Shown here in pieces: positions 28-5,043 of a DNA stretch of 47,759 nucleotides; the stretch's first letter is position 1; the number at the start of each line of letters is the position of its first letter. This DNA comes from Acidimicrobiales bacterium. Its GTDB lineage: Bacteria; Actinomycetota; Acidimicrobiia; Acidimicrobiales; RAAP-2. The position numbers and the translations under genes are program-made. Below the pieces are notes generated by a model. The model made no database searches. It worked only from the letters and a program-made list of their open reading frames with translations, and was not told the origin of the DNA. The stretch covers positions 1 to 47,759 of the forward strand of contig JANXWA010000029.1 of the NCBI GenBank assembly GCA_025351385.1, in the 5' to 3' direction.

Positions 28-1923
28 CTAGCTCTTCCAGATCTGATCCCACCGAGCCGAGCCGCCATCGGGGCTGAGCACCGGTGTGACGCCGTCGGCG
101 GCCGTTCCCGAGATCCAGTTCTGGACGTTCTTGCGAGCCGCGAACGCGGTGACCGTCGTGTCCAGCCAGAGGTAGGGGATGTCCTTGGCGAACGTGCTGT
201 TCACCAGCTGCCACTGACCGACCTGAGCGGCCGAGTTCGGTGGCGACGCCAGCGCGTTCAGCATCGCCGCCTCGATGGCCGCGTCGCCCAAGTGGGCGAA
301 GTTCACCGCACCGGCGATCATCGTCCCGGTGGGGAGTGCGGCCATGCCGAGCCCGGACGGTGGGTTCTCGCCCGCCGAGAACGAGTTGAACCACACGTAG
401 TTGAGCGCCGGGTCAACGGTGCCGAACTGGTTCCACGTCGCGCAGTCGTAGGTTCCGTAGATCACGTTGTTGATCAACGTGCTCTGGACCACCGGGCGAG
501 AGGTCACTGTGATGCCGACCGCGGCCAACTGCTGCTGGAAGAAGGAGAACGCCTTCGTCGCGGCGGAGTTGCCCGAGACGATGTCGATCACGAAGCTGAC
601 CGCCGACACGTTGTTCTTCGACTTGTACGCCTGGACCAGGGCCTTGGCTCCGGCTGGGTTGTACGCCGGGTAGCCCGGGTTCTTGTAGTAGCGCGACGTC
701 TTCTTGTAGATGCCGTCGGCGACCACGCCGGTCATGCCGTCGACCACCTTCCAGTAGGTCGTGCGGTTGATCGCCATTGCGCAGGCCTGGCGGATCGTCA
801 CGTCGTTCAGCACGGGGCTCAACTTGGTGTTCCACTGCAGCGTCGACGGGTCGACGGCACCCTTCGTTCCCTGCCAGTCAGCAAACTGCACCTGGGCCGG
901 CGGTGCCTGACCCTTCAGGATGTAGCTCAACGCTCCCGGCAGTCCAATGGCCGCGGTGAACTGACCGGCCCACGCGAAGTACTGGTTCATCGTACCGGTC
1001 GTGTTGATGATCAGGCAGTTGACCGACGGGTCCCTGAACGAGTTGACATCGGTGACGTAGTTGATGCCGCTGATGTGCTTCAAGTTCGCAATAGCGCCAC
1101 CGTCCTGGGTCAGGATCATGTCGACATCGCCAGCCTGCAACGCCTGGTTGCGGGCGTTGTCGTCGGCGATGGTCTTGAAGTTGATCGCGTTGAGGTACGG
1201 CAGCTTGCGGTGGTGGGCGTCCGAACGCCAGTACTTGGCGTTGCGGACCAGCTGGGACTCGACGCCCACCTGCCACGTCTTGATCTTGAACGGACCGGTG
1301 CCCAGAGGCGTTCCGGCGAATCCGGCCGCGAGCGAGTTCGGGTGGGCCATGTAGGAGACCTGCTGCTCCGCCAAGGAGACCGGAAACGTCGAATAGGCGA
1401 TGACCAGGGTGTACTTGACCGTGTTGGTGTCGATCTTCTCGCACTTGGCGATGATCGGACGAATGGCCAGGCCCACCGTCGGGTCGGCGGCGGAGGCGGC
1501 CCAGTTGGCCACTACGACGTCGGCGTTGAACGGGTCACCATTGGAAAACTTGACACCTTGTCGAAGAGCGACGGTCCACTGGGTGTAGTTGGAGTTGGGA
1601 GTTGCCGACAGGGCCAGCATCGGCAGTGCGGTTCGGCCACTCTTCGACATGACGAAGAGGGGGTCGTAGAGCGCATTGGCCACGCAGAATCCCGAAGCGT
1701 CCATCTTGCCTTGCGCGCCATTGAACTTATGGAAGTTCGGCACGTCGGAGATGAGGGCGATGGTCAGTTTCCCGCCCTTCTTCGGTGTGCCGTGGTTTAC
1801 ACCCGTCGTCGCACCGGCCACTCCGGCGAGGAGGCCGTCAACGACGGTGCCAGCCATCGCGACGCCACCGATAGTTGCGGCCGAGTGAGTAAGGAACGAT
1901 CGACGATCGAACGTTGGTGACAT
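28..1923 (-). CDS. ABC transporter substrate-binding protein, family 5 (peptide/opine/nickel type), Tat-exported
   Basis: Extracytoplasmic solute receptor of the SBP_bac_5 family, which usually delivers peptides or related solutes to a Dpp/Opp-type importer. The N-terminus carries a twin-arginine signal (DRRSFLTHSAA) followed by a hydrophobic stretch and a probable AGA cleavage region. There is no lipobox cysteine, so it is predicted to be Tat-secreted rather than lipid-anchored. The mature part (about 590 residues) is the usual length and contains typical blocks such as ALRQGVKFSNGDPF and GTGPFKIKTW. Two adjacent ATGs exist at 1926 and 1923. The second is preferred because an AGGA lies at better spacing, and an upstream extension to 2001 would bury the Tat signal. 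No permease gene follows inside the window, but the strand runs off its left edge. A 13-nt inverted repeat (GAGCTA-C-TAGCTC, 22-34) spans the stop codon. The substrate cannot be told from sequence. Confidence 0.88.
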   Translation of the reverse strand: MSPTFDRRSFLTHSAATIGGVAMAGTVVDGLLAGVAGATTGVNHGTPKKGGKLTIALISDVPNFHKFNGAQGKMDASGFCVANALYDPLFVMSKSGRTALPMLALSATPNSNYTQWTVALRQGVKFSNGDPFNADVVVANWAASAADPTVGLAIRPIIAKCEKIDTNTVKYTLVIAYSTFPVSLAEQQVSYMAHPNSLAAGFAGTPLGTGPFKIKTWQVGVESQLVRNAKYWRSDAHHRKLPYLNAINFKTIADDNARNQALQAGDVDMILTQDGGAIANLKHISGINYVTDVNSFRDPSVNCLIINTTGTMNQYFAWAGQFTAAIGLPGALSYILKGQAPPAQVQFADWQGTKGAVDPSTLQWNTKLSPVLNDVTIRQACAMAINRTTYWKVVDGMTGVVADGIYKKTSRYYKNPGYPAYNPAGAKALVQAYKSKNNVSAVSFVIDIVSGNSAATKAFSFFQQQLAAVGITVTSRPVVQSTLINNVIYGTYDCATWNQFGTVDPALNYVWFNSFSAGENPPSGLGMAALPTGTMIAGAVNFAHLGDAAIEAAMLNALASPPNSAAQVGQWQLVNSTFAKDIPYLWLDTTVTAFAARKNVQNWISGTAADGVTPVLSPDGGSARWDQIWKS

Positions 1924-2040
1924 CATGTTCCTGCTTTCCCCCGAAGAACCGGCCTTGTGCTGGTTCTCCTTTTGAGGCAACTTAGCAAGAACTTTAAGCA
2001 AAACAAGTTCACGGGCCCAAACTCTCCCTCAGGAACTGCT

Positions 2041-2080
2041 TCAGGGCCCAGGCGGAAGGGAGGAACCGCCTGGACCCTGA
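2041..2080 (-). terminator. hairpin 1 of a tandem pair (intergenic)
   Basis: A 15-bp stem with one internal C/A mismatch (TCAGGGCCCAGGCGG against CCGCCTGGACCCTGA) and a 10-nt loop. It lies downstream of the DUF5666-like gene and upstream of the solute-binding protein gene, both on the minus strand. No clear T-run follows, so it could be a Rho-independent-like terminator, an mRNA 3'-end stabiliser or a leader element. Confidence 0.6.
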
Positions 2081-2099
2081 AAATCTGATGACGAATGCG

Positions 2100-2139
2100 T
2101 CAGGACCCAGACGGCCGGGAGGAGTCGCCTGGGTCCTGA
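2100..2139 (-). terminator. hairpin 2 of a tandem pair (intergenic)
   Basis: A diverged second copy of the neighbouring hairpin: an 11-bp perfect outer stem (TCAGGACCCAG with CTGGGTCCTGA) and a further weak inner stem. The sixth base pair is A-T here but G-C in the other copy, and the loop core GGGAGGA (plus-strand sense) is shared. On the transcribed minus strand the loop reads as a CCUCC-type sequence. Confidence 0.6.
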
Positions 2140-2155: not shown

Positions 2156-3148
2156 CTAGCGATTGCCGCCCTGGCCGCCAAAGCCACCCATGCCGCCAAA
2201 CCCACCCATATAACCGTGGTCTGCGTGACCGTGACGTCCGATTCCGCCTCCGGCGCCCATCATGGCGAAGCCGTCATGGCCTCCGGTGAACTTGGGCTGG
2301 CCAATTCCGACTGTGGTGGCCGTCAACACGGTATTGGCGGAGTCGAAGACCCCCTCCGCGAAAACGATCGAGCCCACGGTGACGTCAGCCAACGTGGCGC
2401 TCGCCCCGTTCTTGGAGTACTTCGTGGTGCCGGTGACGTCGATGGTGACGTTCGGACCTACGTGGTCAGTGACCGTGATCGTGCTCGCGGTGACCGCCAC
2501 AACCTGGCCCGCGGCGTGAGCCAGCTCGATCTCCACGCTCGACGCGGTGGTCGAACTGGTGGAGCTGATCGTGATTCGGACGTGCTCGCCGACGGCAAGG
2601 TCGCCCGAGGTCGCGGCGGTGCGCTCCTTGGTCACCGTCGTGGACGAGTCCAGCGCGAACGTCGTGGTCGTTCCCGCTCGGTCCTTCACCGTGATCGACG
2701 TGCCGGTGACGGCCGTGACGACGCCGCCGGCGCGCTTGTCGGTGTTCCAGCCATGAGCTTTGGCGATGTCGATGTCGACGCTAGAAGCGGTAGTCGAACC
2801 GGGAGCGCTCAGCGTGACGTCAACCCTCTGGCCAACGGCCAGGTCGGTCAGCAACGCGGTCGCTCCGTCCTTGGTCACCGTGGTCGTCGAGCCGATCGTG
2901 TACGTCGTGGACGCACCACTGCGGTTCTGCACGGTGATCGAGGTGCCAGTGACGGCGGTCACGAGACCACCCAGGCCTCTCGCCTGGTCGGCCAGTGGTG
3001 AGGCGGTGGCCGAAAGTGGGCCGTCGATCTTGGAATGGTGATGCGTTGAAGCACCTGCGATACCAGCGCCGGTAGCGAGCGCGCCGATGGCGACGGCGCT
3101 CGTGATTCCGACGCGCCTTGTCATCGTCTGCTTGTTTGTGCGGTACAT
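2156..3148 (-). CDS. secreted DUF5666-like beta-repeat protein with Gly-rich tail
   Basis: Exported protein of 330 residues with no assignable enzymatic role. An N-terminal signal-like segment (RRVGITSAVAIGALATGAG) ends near an AGAS site. It is followed by three tandem modules of about 65-70 residues (around 57-125, 136-205 and 206-275), each built on the pattern GxVTAVTGTSITVxxRxG, then a TTTVTK strand and an AVGxxVxxT strand. This resembles DUF5666 domains, which are small beta-barrel modules. The last 45 residues are rich in Gly, His and Met (MGAGGGIGRHGHADHG and GGFGGMGGFGGQGG) and might bind metal or act as a flexible surface tail; that is inference. The ATG at 3148 has AGGT upstream. 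An alternative ATG lies eight codons inside. The gene sits upstream of, and co-directional with, the solute-binding protein, separated from it by two hairpins. Confidence 0.75.
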   Translation of the reverse strand: MYRTNKQTMTRRVGITSAVAIGALATGAGIAGASTHHHSKIDGPLSATASPLADQARGLGGLVTAVTGTSITVQNRSGASTTYTIGSTTTVTKDGATALLTDLAVGQRVDVTLSAPGSTTASSVDIDIAKAHGWNTDKRAGGVVTAVTGTSITVKDRAGTTTTFALDSSTTVTKERTAATSGDLAVGEHVRITISSTSSTTASSVEIELAHAAGQVVAVTASTITVTDHVGPNVTIDVTGTTKYSKNGASATLADVTVGSIVFAEGVFDSANTVLTATTVGIGQPKFTGGHDGFAMMGAGGGIGRHGHADHGYMGGFGGMGGFGGQGGNR

Positions 3149-3342: not shown

Positions 3343-3440
3343 CCGACAACGCAATCCCAATCAGCAATACTTGGCGCGTACGTCCAGCACCCCACGGAGC
3401 CGTAGCAGTTAAACACCATCTATTAGGGAGGACCACAACA

Positions 3441-4997
3441 GTGGCAACAGGCATCGAGATGCATGATGGATCATCGGGAGACCAGGTCTTCCACGTCGAA
3501 CGAAGGGGCATTGACTACGTCCCGGAGAATGAACGCTGGGCGACACCCCGAAATATCGGTGCCCTGTGGGGCGGATCGGCGATCAACGTCGAGTACTTCA
3601 TCTACGGCGCACTGCTCATGGGCTTCGGCTTCAGCTTCTACACCGCGCTCAGCATCATCATCATTGGCAATCTCTCGTACTTCTTCCTCGGACTCGCCTC
3701 GTTGCAGGGCCCCGAGACCGGTACGACCGCGTTTACCGTCAGCCGGGCTCCCTTCGGCTCCCACGGGTCGCGTTTAGTCGCCTTCTTCAACTGGATCACG
3801 CAGATCGGGTTCGAGACCGAGGGACTGATCCTCATCGTCGGAGCGGCGATCGTGCTCTGCCAGATGGCCGGCATCCACGTCTCGAGCACGCTCAAGGTGG
3901 TCTTCATCATCCTGGCGGCGGCCATCCAGGCGGTGGTCCCCTACCTCGGCCACGCCACCATGGTGAAGGTCTTGCGGGCCCTGATCATCCCGTTCGCGGC
4001 GATCTTCGTGCTCCTGACGTTCTACGACATCAAGCACGGTTCAGCCAACTTCTCGGGCTCGGGTTACGCCAACTGGGAGCTCTACACCGCTGGTCTCGCG
4101 TTTACGTTCGCCCTCTCGGGCCTCGGCTGGACCGAGGTCGGCAACGACTACACGCGCTACGTGCCGCGTGACGCGAGCAAGAAGGCGATCGTCGGGTGGA
4201 TCTTCGTCGGCACGGCCATCCCGGAGATCTCCATGATGGTCCTGGGGGCGGCGACGTTCACCTTCCTCTCATCGAAAGGACAGGTCGCCGCGTGGAACGG
4301 CGCGAACCCCTTCGAGGCCCTCCACGGCCAGCACTTCATCCCGAGCTGGGTCGTCGCGATCTTCCTCATCTTCGCGATCGTGCAGCTCTTCGGCATCAAC
4401 TCGCTCGACCTCTACTCTTCGGGCGTGTCACTCCAGGCGATGGGTCTACGTCTGCAGCGCTACCAGGCCGTCGTGCTTGACAGCTTCATCGCGTGCGGCC
4501 TGACCATCTGGGCGATGTTCCAGTCGACCTTCTCGCTCTACATGAAGGAGTTCGTCGGCGTCATCATCGTGTGGATCGCCCCGTGGTTCGGCATTCTGAT
4601 CACGGACTGGATCATGCGCAAGTACCGCTACAACGCGGCCGAACTGCAGCGAACCGACAAGGACGGCCTCTACTACGTCGGCTCGACCGGCATCAACTGG
4701 AACGCCATCGTGGCCTTCGTAGCCGGTCTGGTCACCGCGACCATCGCCTTCTCGAAGGCGCCGCCCCCGGTCAACCTCCCGTTCCACTGGATGACTCCGA
4801 TCTCGAACCACTTCGGTGGGGCCTGTGCGGCCACGCCGGTGAACGGCATCTGTACCGCCGGCTGGTACGGCGGCGCCGACTTCTCGGTACCCACCGGGAT
4901 CATCATCGCGGGACTCGTGTACTTCCTGCTCGAGCGCGCGACGGGCAACGTGGCACGCCAGGTCACTCGCCAGAAGGAGCTAGAGCCCAACCTCTAG
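3441..4997 (+). CDS. NCS1-family nucleobase permease (cytosine/purine type, CodB-like)
   Basis: Integral membrane protein of 518 residues with about twelve hydrophobic segments. It belongs to the nucleobase:cation symporter-1 family, which imports cytosine, purines, uracil, allantoin or related solutes with H+ or Na+. Supporting signs are the family-like N-terminal block ending RWATPRNIGALWGG, the following INVEYFIYGALLMGFG helix, and the SGLGWTEVGNDYTRYVP loop. It starts at a GTG preceded by a strong AGGGAGGA. The next three genes encode a phosphoribosyltransferase, a cytosine deaminase and uracil phosphoribosyltransferase, so cytosine is the likeliest substrate. This rests on context rather than on binding-site residues. 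A perfect 15-bp terminator follows directly. Confidence 0.88.
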   Translation: MATGIEMHDGSSGDQVFHVERRGIDYVPENERWATPRNIGALWGGSAINVEYFIYGALLMGFGFSFYTALSIIIIGNLSYFFLGLASLQGPETGTTAFTVSRAPFGSHGSRLVAFFNWITQIGFETEGLILIVGAAIVLCQMAGIHVSSTLKVVFIILAAAIQAVVPYLGHATMVKVLRALIIPFAAIFVLLTFYDIKHGSANFSGSGYANWELYTAGLAFTFALSGLGWTEVGNDYTRYVPRDASKKAIVGWIFVGTAIPEISMMVLGAATFTFLSSKGQVAAWNGANPFEALHGQHFIPSWVVAIFLIFAIVQLFGINSLDLYSSGVSLQAMGLRLQRYQAVVLDSFIACGLTIWAMFQSTFSLYMKEFVGVIIVWIAPWFGILITDWIMRKYRYNAAELQRTDKDGLYYVGSTGINWNAIVAFVAGLVTATIAFSKAPPPVNLPFHWMTPISNHFGGACAATPVNGICTAGWYGGADFSVPTGIIIAGLVYFLLERATGNVARQVTRQKELEPNL

Positions 4998-5008: not shown

Positions 5009-5043
5009 ACAATGGCCCCGAGCATCTCGCTCGGGGCCATTGT
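5009..5043. terminator. bidirectional intrinsic terminator-like hairpin
   Basis: A perfect 15-bp stem (ACAATGGCCCCGAGC and its complement) around a 5-nt ATCTC loop. It lies between the convergent NCS1 permease and phosphoribosyltransferase genes. The stem ends in ACAAT/ATTGT, giving a short A/T tract on either strand. Confidence 0.85.

Follow-up and report, generated by a model that had tools for sequence, protein, structure and literature searches.

Our sequence analysis indicates that two tandem hairpins, HP1 and HP2, form a genuine structured RNA element that is found in one genus and has largely kept an anti-Shine-Dalgarno-like loop. Both lie on the minus strand of the window (the whole stretch of 47,759 nucleotides that was analysed), between an ORF with a DUF5666 domain and the gene of an extracellular solute-binding protein (SBP). 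We put the probability at roughly 0.55 that they act as a regulatory sRNA, either of the 3′UTR type or free-standing, whose loops would cover ribosome-binding sites. The features concerned are as follows.

28..1926, minus strand: SBP, extracellular solute-binding protein family 5 (ABC; PF00496); candidate target.
1936..1942, minus strand: GGGGGAA in the SBP leader; pairing of 7 bp possible with the HP1 loop.
1979..2006, minus strand: promoter-like element of SBP (TTGTTT, 16 nt, TAAGTT), with TGC before TAAGTT (extended −10).
2040..2081, minus strand: HP1 stem-loop, a 16-bp stem with a 10-nt loop UUCCUCCCUU, from sequence, folding and covariation.
2082..2099, minus strand: linker between HP2 and HP1, 18 nt.
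2100..2139, minus strand: HP2 stem-loop, loop region ACUCCUCCCGGC, beginning 16 nt past the DUF5666 stop codon.
2156..3148, minus strand: ORF UP330, 330 aa, DUF5666 domain (PF18914), directly upstream of the hairpins on the RNA strand.
3425..3432, plus strand: Shine-Dalgarno-like site AGGGAGGA of the NCS1-type transporter gene, complementary to UCCUCCCU of the HP1 loop over all 8 nt; candidate target in trans.
3441..4997, plus strand: NCS1-type transporter (PF02133), divergent and beyond UP330; candidate target.

Along the minus strand, the order is thus the UP330 ORF, 16 nt, HP2, 18 nt, HP1, the promoter-like element, a short leader and SBP. The window sequence bore out the original prediction with respect to the coordinates of the two hairpins, their spacing (starts about 59 nt apart) and their shared loop: on the plus strand the loops read AAGGGAGGAA in HP1 and GGGAGGA in HP2, and on the minus strand UUCCUCCCUU and UCCUCCC. 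The predicted change of the sixth stem pair (counting from TCAGG) on both sides, from G-C in HP1 to A-T in HP2, was likewise present; one changed pair is by itself thin evidence for structure. All four 51-nt stretches, i.e. HP1 and HP2 on both strands, folded better than 200 out of 200 shuffles. The folding energy was −33.9 kcal/mol on the minus strand vs −28.6 on the plus strand for HP1 (minus-strand z −6.2), and −28.7 vs −27.7 kcal/mol for HP2 (minus-strand z −5.0). The pattern GGGAGGA(N0-2)CGCCTGG, which was derived from the two hairpins themselves, occurs 2 times in the window vs 0.01 expected.

Selection on the structure, proposed earlier from the window alone, is supported by the comparison of sequences across genomes. 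In an alignment of 13 hairpins (from 15, omitting a duplicate, G020, and the divergent-loop hairpin of G023), 7 of the 16 pairs vary on both sides. In a larger one of 45 hairpins (from 47 distinct ones, omitting G018 and one hairpin of the G033 clade; two rows, G026 and the second hairpin of G034, look misaligned), 12 of the 13 pairs do so, with 84 double-change cells vs 23.5 in shuffles, and the covariation score was 0.480 vs 0.241 when shuffled and at most 0.135 in slid controls. Since all the 47 hairpins were picked by their C-rich loop, the larger alignment is informative on the stem and not on the loop. The minus strand had also been predicted to be the transcribed one. Read on this strand, 43 distinct stems contained 32 G-U vs 6 A-C pairs by a strand-neutral finder that treated both alike, or 19 stems vs 2 when counted by stem (binomial p 2e-5 and 2e-4, respectively, with relatedness ignored); this count supersedes the 33 vs 4 given by an earlier finder that favoured G-U. 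The excess of G-U over A-C indicates that the minus strand is the RNA.

Loop identity was examined on hairpins chosen regardless of their loop. Among the 55 strong hairpins upstream of SBP, 40 carry CUCCC, 1 carries CCUCC, 2 carry CCCC and 12 carry none of these, in agreement with the shared loop core first noticed in HP1 and HP2. A 436-kb sample of the source genome (435,628 bases, window included, locus excluded) contained 14 other strong intergenic hairpins. CUCCC is absent from all of them on both strands, and the loops of 13 are 3–6 nt long. The hairpins of the locus do not show the random loops of generic terminators. A REP-like repeat, with the motif in many copies elsewhere in the genome, was rejected: HP1 and HP2 alone were found in the source genome among the first-look candidates scored (150 of 1508 in search R1 and 69 of 1435 in search R2).

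A DNA search with positions 1920–2160 gave matches in 16 out of 61 genomes including the source genome, all belonging to one genus. SBP was present at E≤1e-150 in 56 of the 99 genus genomes. The 56 upstream regions examined came from 54 of those (G066 and G002 have no upstream DNA) and from G062 and G036, whose SBP fell below this line. A strong hairpin was found between −420 and −75 of SBP in 48 of the 56. When whole intervals were searched with the strand-neutral finder, with a C-rich loop among the selection criteria, 46 of the 56 genomes had such a hairpin (56 hairpins in total) in the syntenic interval of NCS1 transporter, DUF5666 ORF where present, hairpin and SBP. No motif hairpin was found in the searched interval of the other ten, one of which (G023) has one just outside. 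Ten of the 46 (G000, G003, G010, G034, G070, G075, G076, G079, G107 and G121) have tandem pairs whose starts are 58–63 nt apart, and the second hairpins of some genomes have pure C loops (CCCCC). In three genomes the hairpin in place lacks the motif, its loop being GCGA in G021 and G030 and CAAAGACUU in G087; these hairpins lie near the SBP promoter-like element. Similarly, a second strong hairpin with no CUCCC loop is located 108–157 nt upstream of SBP in G010, G034 and G079 (L067, L064 and L124), just upstream of the promoter-like element, with the motif hairpins far away.

The R2 model search gave a match at E≤0.01 in 53 of the 99 genus genomes, including the 46 with a motif hairpin. The match in G023 has the loop CACUCCCA and follows, at a distance of 18 nt, the stop codon of a second ORF. 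This ORF (L065, G023:C44, 1–304) is truncated by the contig start, resembles the DUF5666 C-terminus and precedes a full DUF5666 gene. In G067, G069 and G120 both SBP and DUF5666 are at the matched locus; in G068 the match adjoins NCS1 and the contig end cuts the locus; in G019 and G114 the matches are plain tetraloop hairpins elsewhere. Further off-locus matches were one in G109 and two in G017, of which one has the loop UCCCCAAU and the other forms no clear hairpin. Outside the genus but within the same order, weak matches were found in 17 of 147 other genomes, and 7 of these 17 loci were flagged by a lenient rule (CUCC or CCCCC on either strand). The SBP-carrying relatives (51 loci) are mostly named as Acidimicrobiaceae, Acidimicrobiales or Actinomycetes, with a few under different names; nearly all are metagenome-assembled, and palsa, bog and fen occur in their isolate names; judging from the records examined, the genus is known almost only from metagenome assemblies.

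The position of the hairpin follows the DUF5666 ORF where there is one. The first motif hairpin begins a median of 17 nt past the DUF5666 stop codon (22 genomes, 21 of them within 2–37 nt), and in G005 it lies 221 nt past the stop of a truncated ORF. We had considered that the hairpin is tied to SBP rather than to this ORF, but genomes with a long distance between hairpin and SBP overturned this: the motif hairpins are about 260–900 nt from SBP in seven genomes, and adjoin the DUF5666 end in all the five that have the ORF (G010, G070, G075, G076 and G121). About 800 nt with no called gene separate the motif hairpins from SBP in G070, G121 and G076 (L177, L178 and L179).

At 22 of 52 loci, a motif hairpin was present with no DUF5666 match. 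Two of these retain truncated ORFs (74 aa in G018, 118 aa in G005), and the remaining 20 have no truncated DUF5666 ORF of at least 70 aa. A DUF5666-like start is kept in G034 (22 aa), G079 (40 aa) and perhaps G063 (43 aa), which suggests that the gene was degraded there and is not cleanly gone. A sense ORF of at least 20 aa ending within 60 nt before the hairpin was found at 14 of the 20 loci, no more than chance would give (11.5 loci by antisense positions, 17.8 by shuffling), and the six genomes of the G033 clade have none. On a quick tree of 46 SBP proteins, which cannot tell loss from gain and from which G097, G087, G028 (by a filter) and several loci are missing, the presence of the ORF switches at least 5 times and that of the hairpin 3 times. 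The hairpin is kept with the ORF missing or degraded in four tree groups, namely G107; G034/G079; G033/G088; and G007-G072-G063-G008-G078-G071-G014-G012 (support 80). G091/G092 have neither ORF nor hairpin. Persistence in four groups makes it unlikely, from these sequences, that the hairpin is solely the terminator of the DUF5666 ORF.

Between the hairpins and the SBP leader, the −10 pattern of the promoter-like element was found in 55 of the 56 genomes vs 4.8% of shuffled regions, while only 16 have TTG at the −35 position. We also tried the SBP leader as a riboswitch stem (UUCUUGCU with AGCAGGA), and dropped it: the UUCUUG(C/A/G)UAAGUU block is unchanged in the G033 clade despite its altered partner, which suits a promoter. 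The position of this element means that the hairpins may be off the SBP mRNA. A search for a sense promoter of the hairpin RNA found none. Many relatives share GGAGA..GCACAAGGC..TCTTCGGGGGAAAGCAGGA in the SBP leader behind the promoter-like element (1927–1975, minus strand); this may be a leader hairpin with the ribosome-binding site after it.

The pairing of the loop with the leader just downstream, as originally predicted, stands only in part. The SBP leader can form 7 bp with the HP1 loop in the source genome, but 32 of 334 gene leaders (starts predicted by an ORF caller) pair at least as well, the promoter-like element intervenes, and the NCS1 leader is the better match, with 8 bp and the 5th rank of the 334 for HP1 loop energy. 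Across genes, loop energy tracks the ordinary anti-Shine-Dalgarno energy (r 0.82), so that these energies do not single out specific targets. For the SBP-proximal loop, the mean duplex energy was −12.96 with the own SBP leader vs −11.76 with swapped leaders (the 40 of the 56 genomes with a C-rich loop). With all motif loops (46 genomes), none of 2000 permutations matched the own SBP pairing, and 82 of 2000 did as well when the six-genome G033 clade was left out. This clade shows one clear co-change, with ACGCCUCCCC in the loop and GGGGAGGCG in the SBP site; its loops, (AC/AU)GCCUCCCC, match the SBP site over 8–10 bp. As it is confined to one lineage, the co-change counts as at most one event. 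Co-evolution of NCS1 with the loop was rejected, since 346 of 2000 permutations did as well (41 genomes; 49 of 52 leaders, those showing a G-rich site) and 1601 of 2000 did so without the G033 clade. Among the 8 genomes with an NCS1 leader and without a motif hairpin, 7 also keep the NCS1 site AGGGAGGA. In view of the swap tests, the 32 better or equal leaders and these NCS1 sites, SBP and NCS1 are suggested as candidate targets.

Comparison with known RNAs gave likeness in design. No Rfam family matched the window at the gathering threshold. The best sub-threshold match, ar14 (RF02344), spans both hairpins (31.0 bits vs a cut-off of 58.8), and no ar14 match was found at E≤0.5 in the loci of 11 relatives. 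According to the available part of PMC10746234, ar14/NfeR1 are cuckoo-type sRNAs of Alphaproteobacteria with several hairpins, in which the same anti-Shine-Dalgarno motif is unpaired on differing stems; NfeR1 blocks the translation start of ntrB, and the mRNAs of two ABC-transporter periplasmic proteins are confirmed targets. Repeated anti-Shine-Dalgarno loops on differing stems are what HP1 and HP2 also show. As far as that part goes, however, ar14 has three motif hairpins on one sRNA with CCUCCUCCC in unpaired regions, whereas we found one or two per interval with CCUCCC loops, HP2 with CUCCUCCC being the nearest, and in Actinobacteria. The 6C/B11 RNA of Actinobacteria (RF01066) has, in the available part of PMC10470900, two repressing loops, whose cytosine strings pair with ribosome-binding sites. 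It resembles our element in its two C-rich-loop hairpins (CCUCCC in the window, tandem pairs in 10 genomes, some CCCCC). No match to 6C was found at E≤1 in the source genome, and none of 31 genus genomes exceeded its cut-off. By the tests made on sequence, the hairpins are thus not a member of either family. Away from the locus, near-threshold 6C-like RNAs were seen in G016 (L145, G016:C9, 41.3 bits) and G013 (L144, G013:C21, 46.6 bits; cut-off 47); the RNA of G016 has a pair of hairpins, both with ACCCCCC loops, close to what was read as a gene of the Mur-ligase family. In the CcaF1-CcsR locus of Rhodobacter, a row of sRNAs is co-transcribed behind a small-protein gene, as given in the accessible text of PMC10253847. 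The layout, hairpin RNA behind an ORF, is alike; there it is DUF1127 with four sRNAs and here DUF5666. Among open-licence papers, none was found linking DUF5666 with a small RNA, and no listed title on Acidimicrobiia sRNAs concerned this element.

By analogy with ar14/NfeR1 and 6C/B11, the hairpin RNA probably acts by placing C-rich loops on ribosome-binding sites. HP1 and HP2 would form the working part of a small regulatory RNA. In the source genome this RNA would either be released from the 3′UTR of the DUF5666 mRNA or make up the end of it, and in genomes with a missing or degraded ORF it would apparently have been kept as a non-coding transcript. The stems would keep the loops open, and the loops, displaying (U)CCUCCC(U), would base-pair with G-rich ribosome-binding sites and so lower the translation of target mRNAs. 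The likely targets would be the transport genes of the same locus (through GGGGGAA of the SBP leader and AGGGAGGA of NCS1), and further genes may be targeted through GGGAGG sites. The sequences show the structure and its strand, the retained loop, the synteny and the persistence beside a missing or degraded ORF; the transcription, processing, pairing and repressive effect of the RNA are what we infer from these comparisons. A terminator role for the upstream transcript is likely alongside the regulatory one. More tentatively, the hairpins may represent a new actinobacterial sRNA family at the 3′ end of DUF5666 mRNAs, a lasting anti-Shine-Dalgarno module which regulates flanking transport genes, has come to be (or was from the outset) what selection acts on, outlives an ORF lost or gained several times, and is convergent with ar14 and 6C. 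RNAs with C-rich loops covering ribosome-binding sites are already known from Alphaproteobacteria and mycobacteria. If our reading is true, this would be another, probably convergent, case, a separate family at one locus of one actinobacterial genus and below Rfam thresholds, and would document hairpin modules that outlasted the ORF in front of them. With its compensating changes and two named neighbours, the element lends itself directly to a test of the regulatory reading.

A terminator role alone, with HP1 and HP2 as a U-less strong intrinsic terminator pair for the DUF5666 transcript and the loop conserved by inheritance or folding preference, is the chief rival reading; it is unlikely, though it deserves serious weight. 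Like tandem intrinsic terminators, the hairpins are stable, with long GC-rich stems, and follow the stop codon (at 16 nt in the window, at the median given above among the 22 genomes) ahead of a promoter-like element; single, double or clustered hairpins after stop codons are described as terminators in the available portion of PMC8355165. No U-tract follows the stem in the window, while the second hairpin of G010 has a TTTTTT tail, and other long U-less hairpins stand between genes in the genome sample. The relatives with GCGA or CAAAGACUU loops in place and the ORF-start traces in G063, G034 and G079, where the loss may be recent, also fit termination. Against this, CUCCC is mostly retained while the stems diverge at nearly all pairs, none of the 14 other strong intergenic hairpins has it, and the hairpin is kept without an intact upstream ORF, in the G033 clade without a nearby sense ORF of at least 20 aa.

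We consider it improbable that the hairpins are a cis-acting element of the SBP leader, in which a single long transcript would carry both the loop and the SBP ribosome-binding site that it pairs with. The better pairing of own than of swapped leaders and the long match of the G033 clade are in its favour; the extended −10 conserved between hairpin and leader, and the genomes in which the hairpins adjoin the DUF5666 end far from SBP, speak against it. Slightly less probable still is a 3′ element that binds a protein or stabilises the mRNA, or a plus-strand site for a CsrA-like protein. GGA in a hairpin loop is the type of site bound by such proteins, and a conserved loop on a stable stem, with AAGGGAGGAA on the plus strand, would fit; the G-U vs A-C counts favour the minus strand over a plus-strand site. 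The regulatory sRNA remains our preferred reading.

Several other conserved or stable elements were noted nearby. The NCS1 leader (3366–3440, plus strand) contains CATACTGGGCGCGTACGAC..CACCTCAC..TTAGGGAGGACCAC, conserved across much of the genus; an Rfam search with it gave nothing at E≤5, and a guessed pseudoknot was unsupported, the consensus fold having 4 pairs only (a 4-bp stem). The block TTTAGnnnnTTCTTA, which many relatives have 131–139 nt ahead of the NCS1 start (190 nt in the source genome), occurs in genus members both with and without DUF5666 and may be a promoter for either strand. Long near-perfect intergenic hairpins with 3–5-nt loops and no U-tract were found at 5009, 14518, 26609 and 33779 of the window and at loci of the genome sample, and are probably the usual terminators of this organism.
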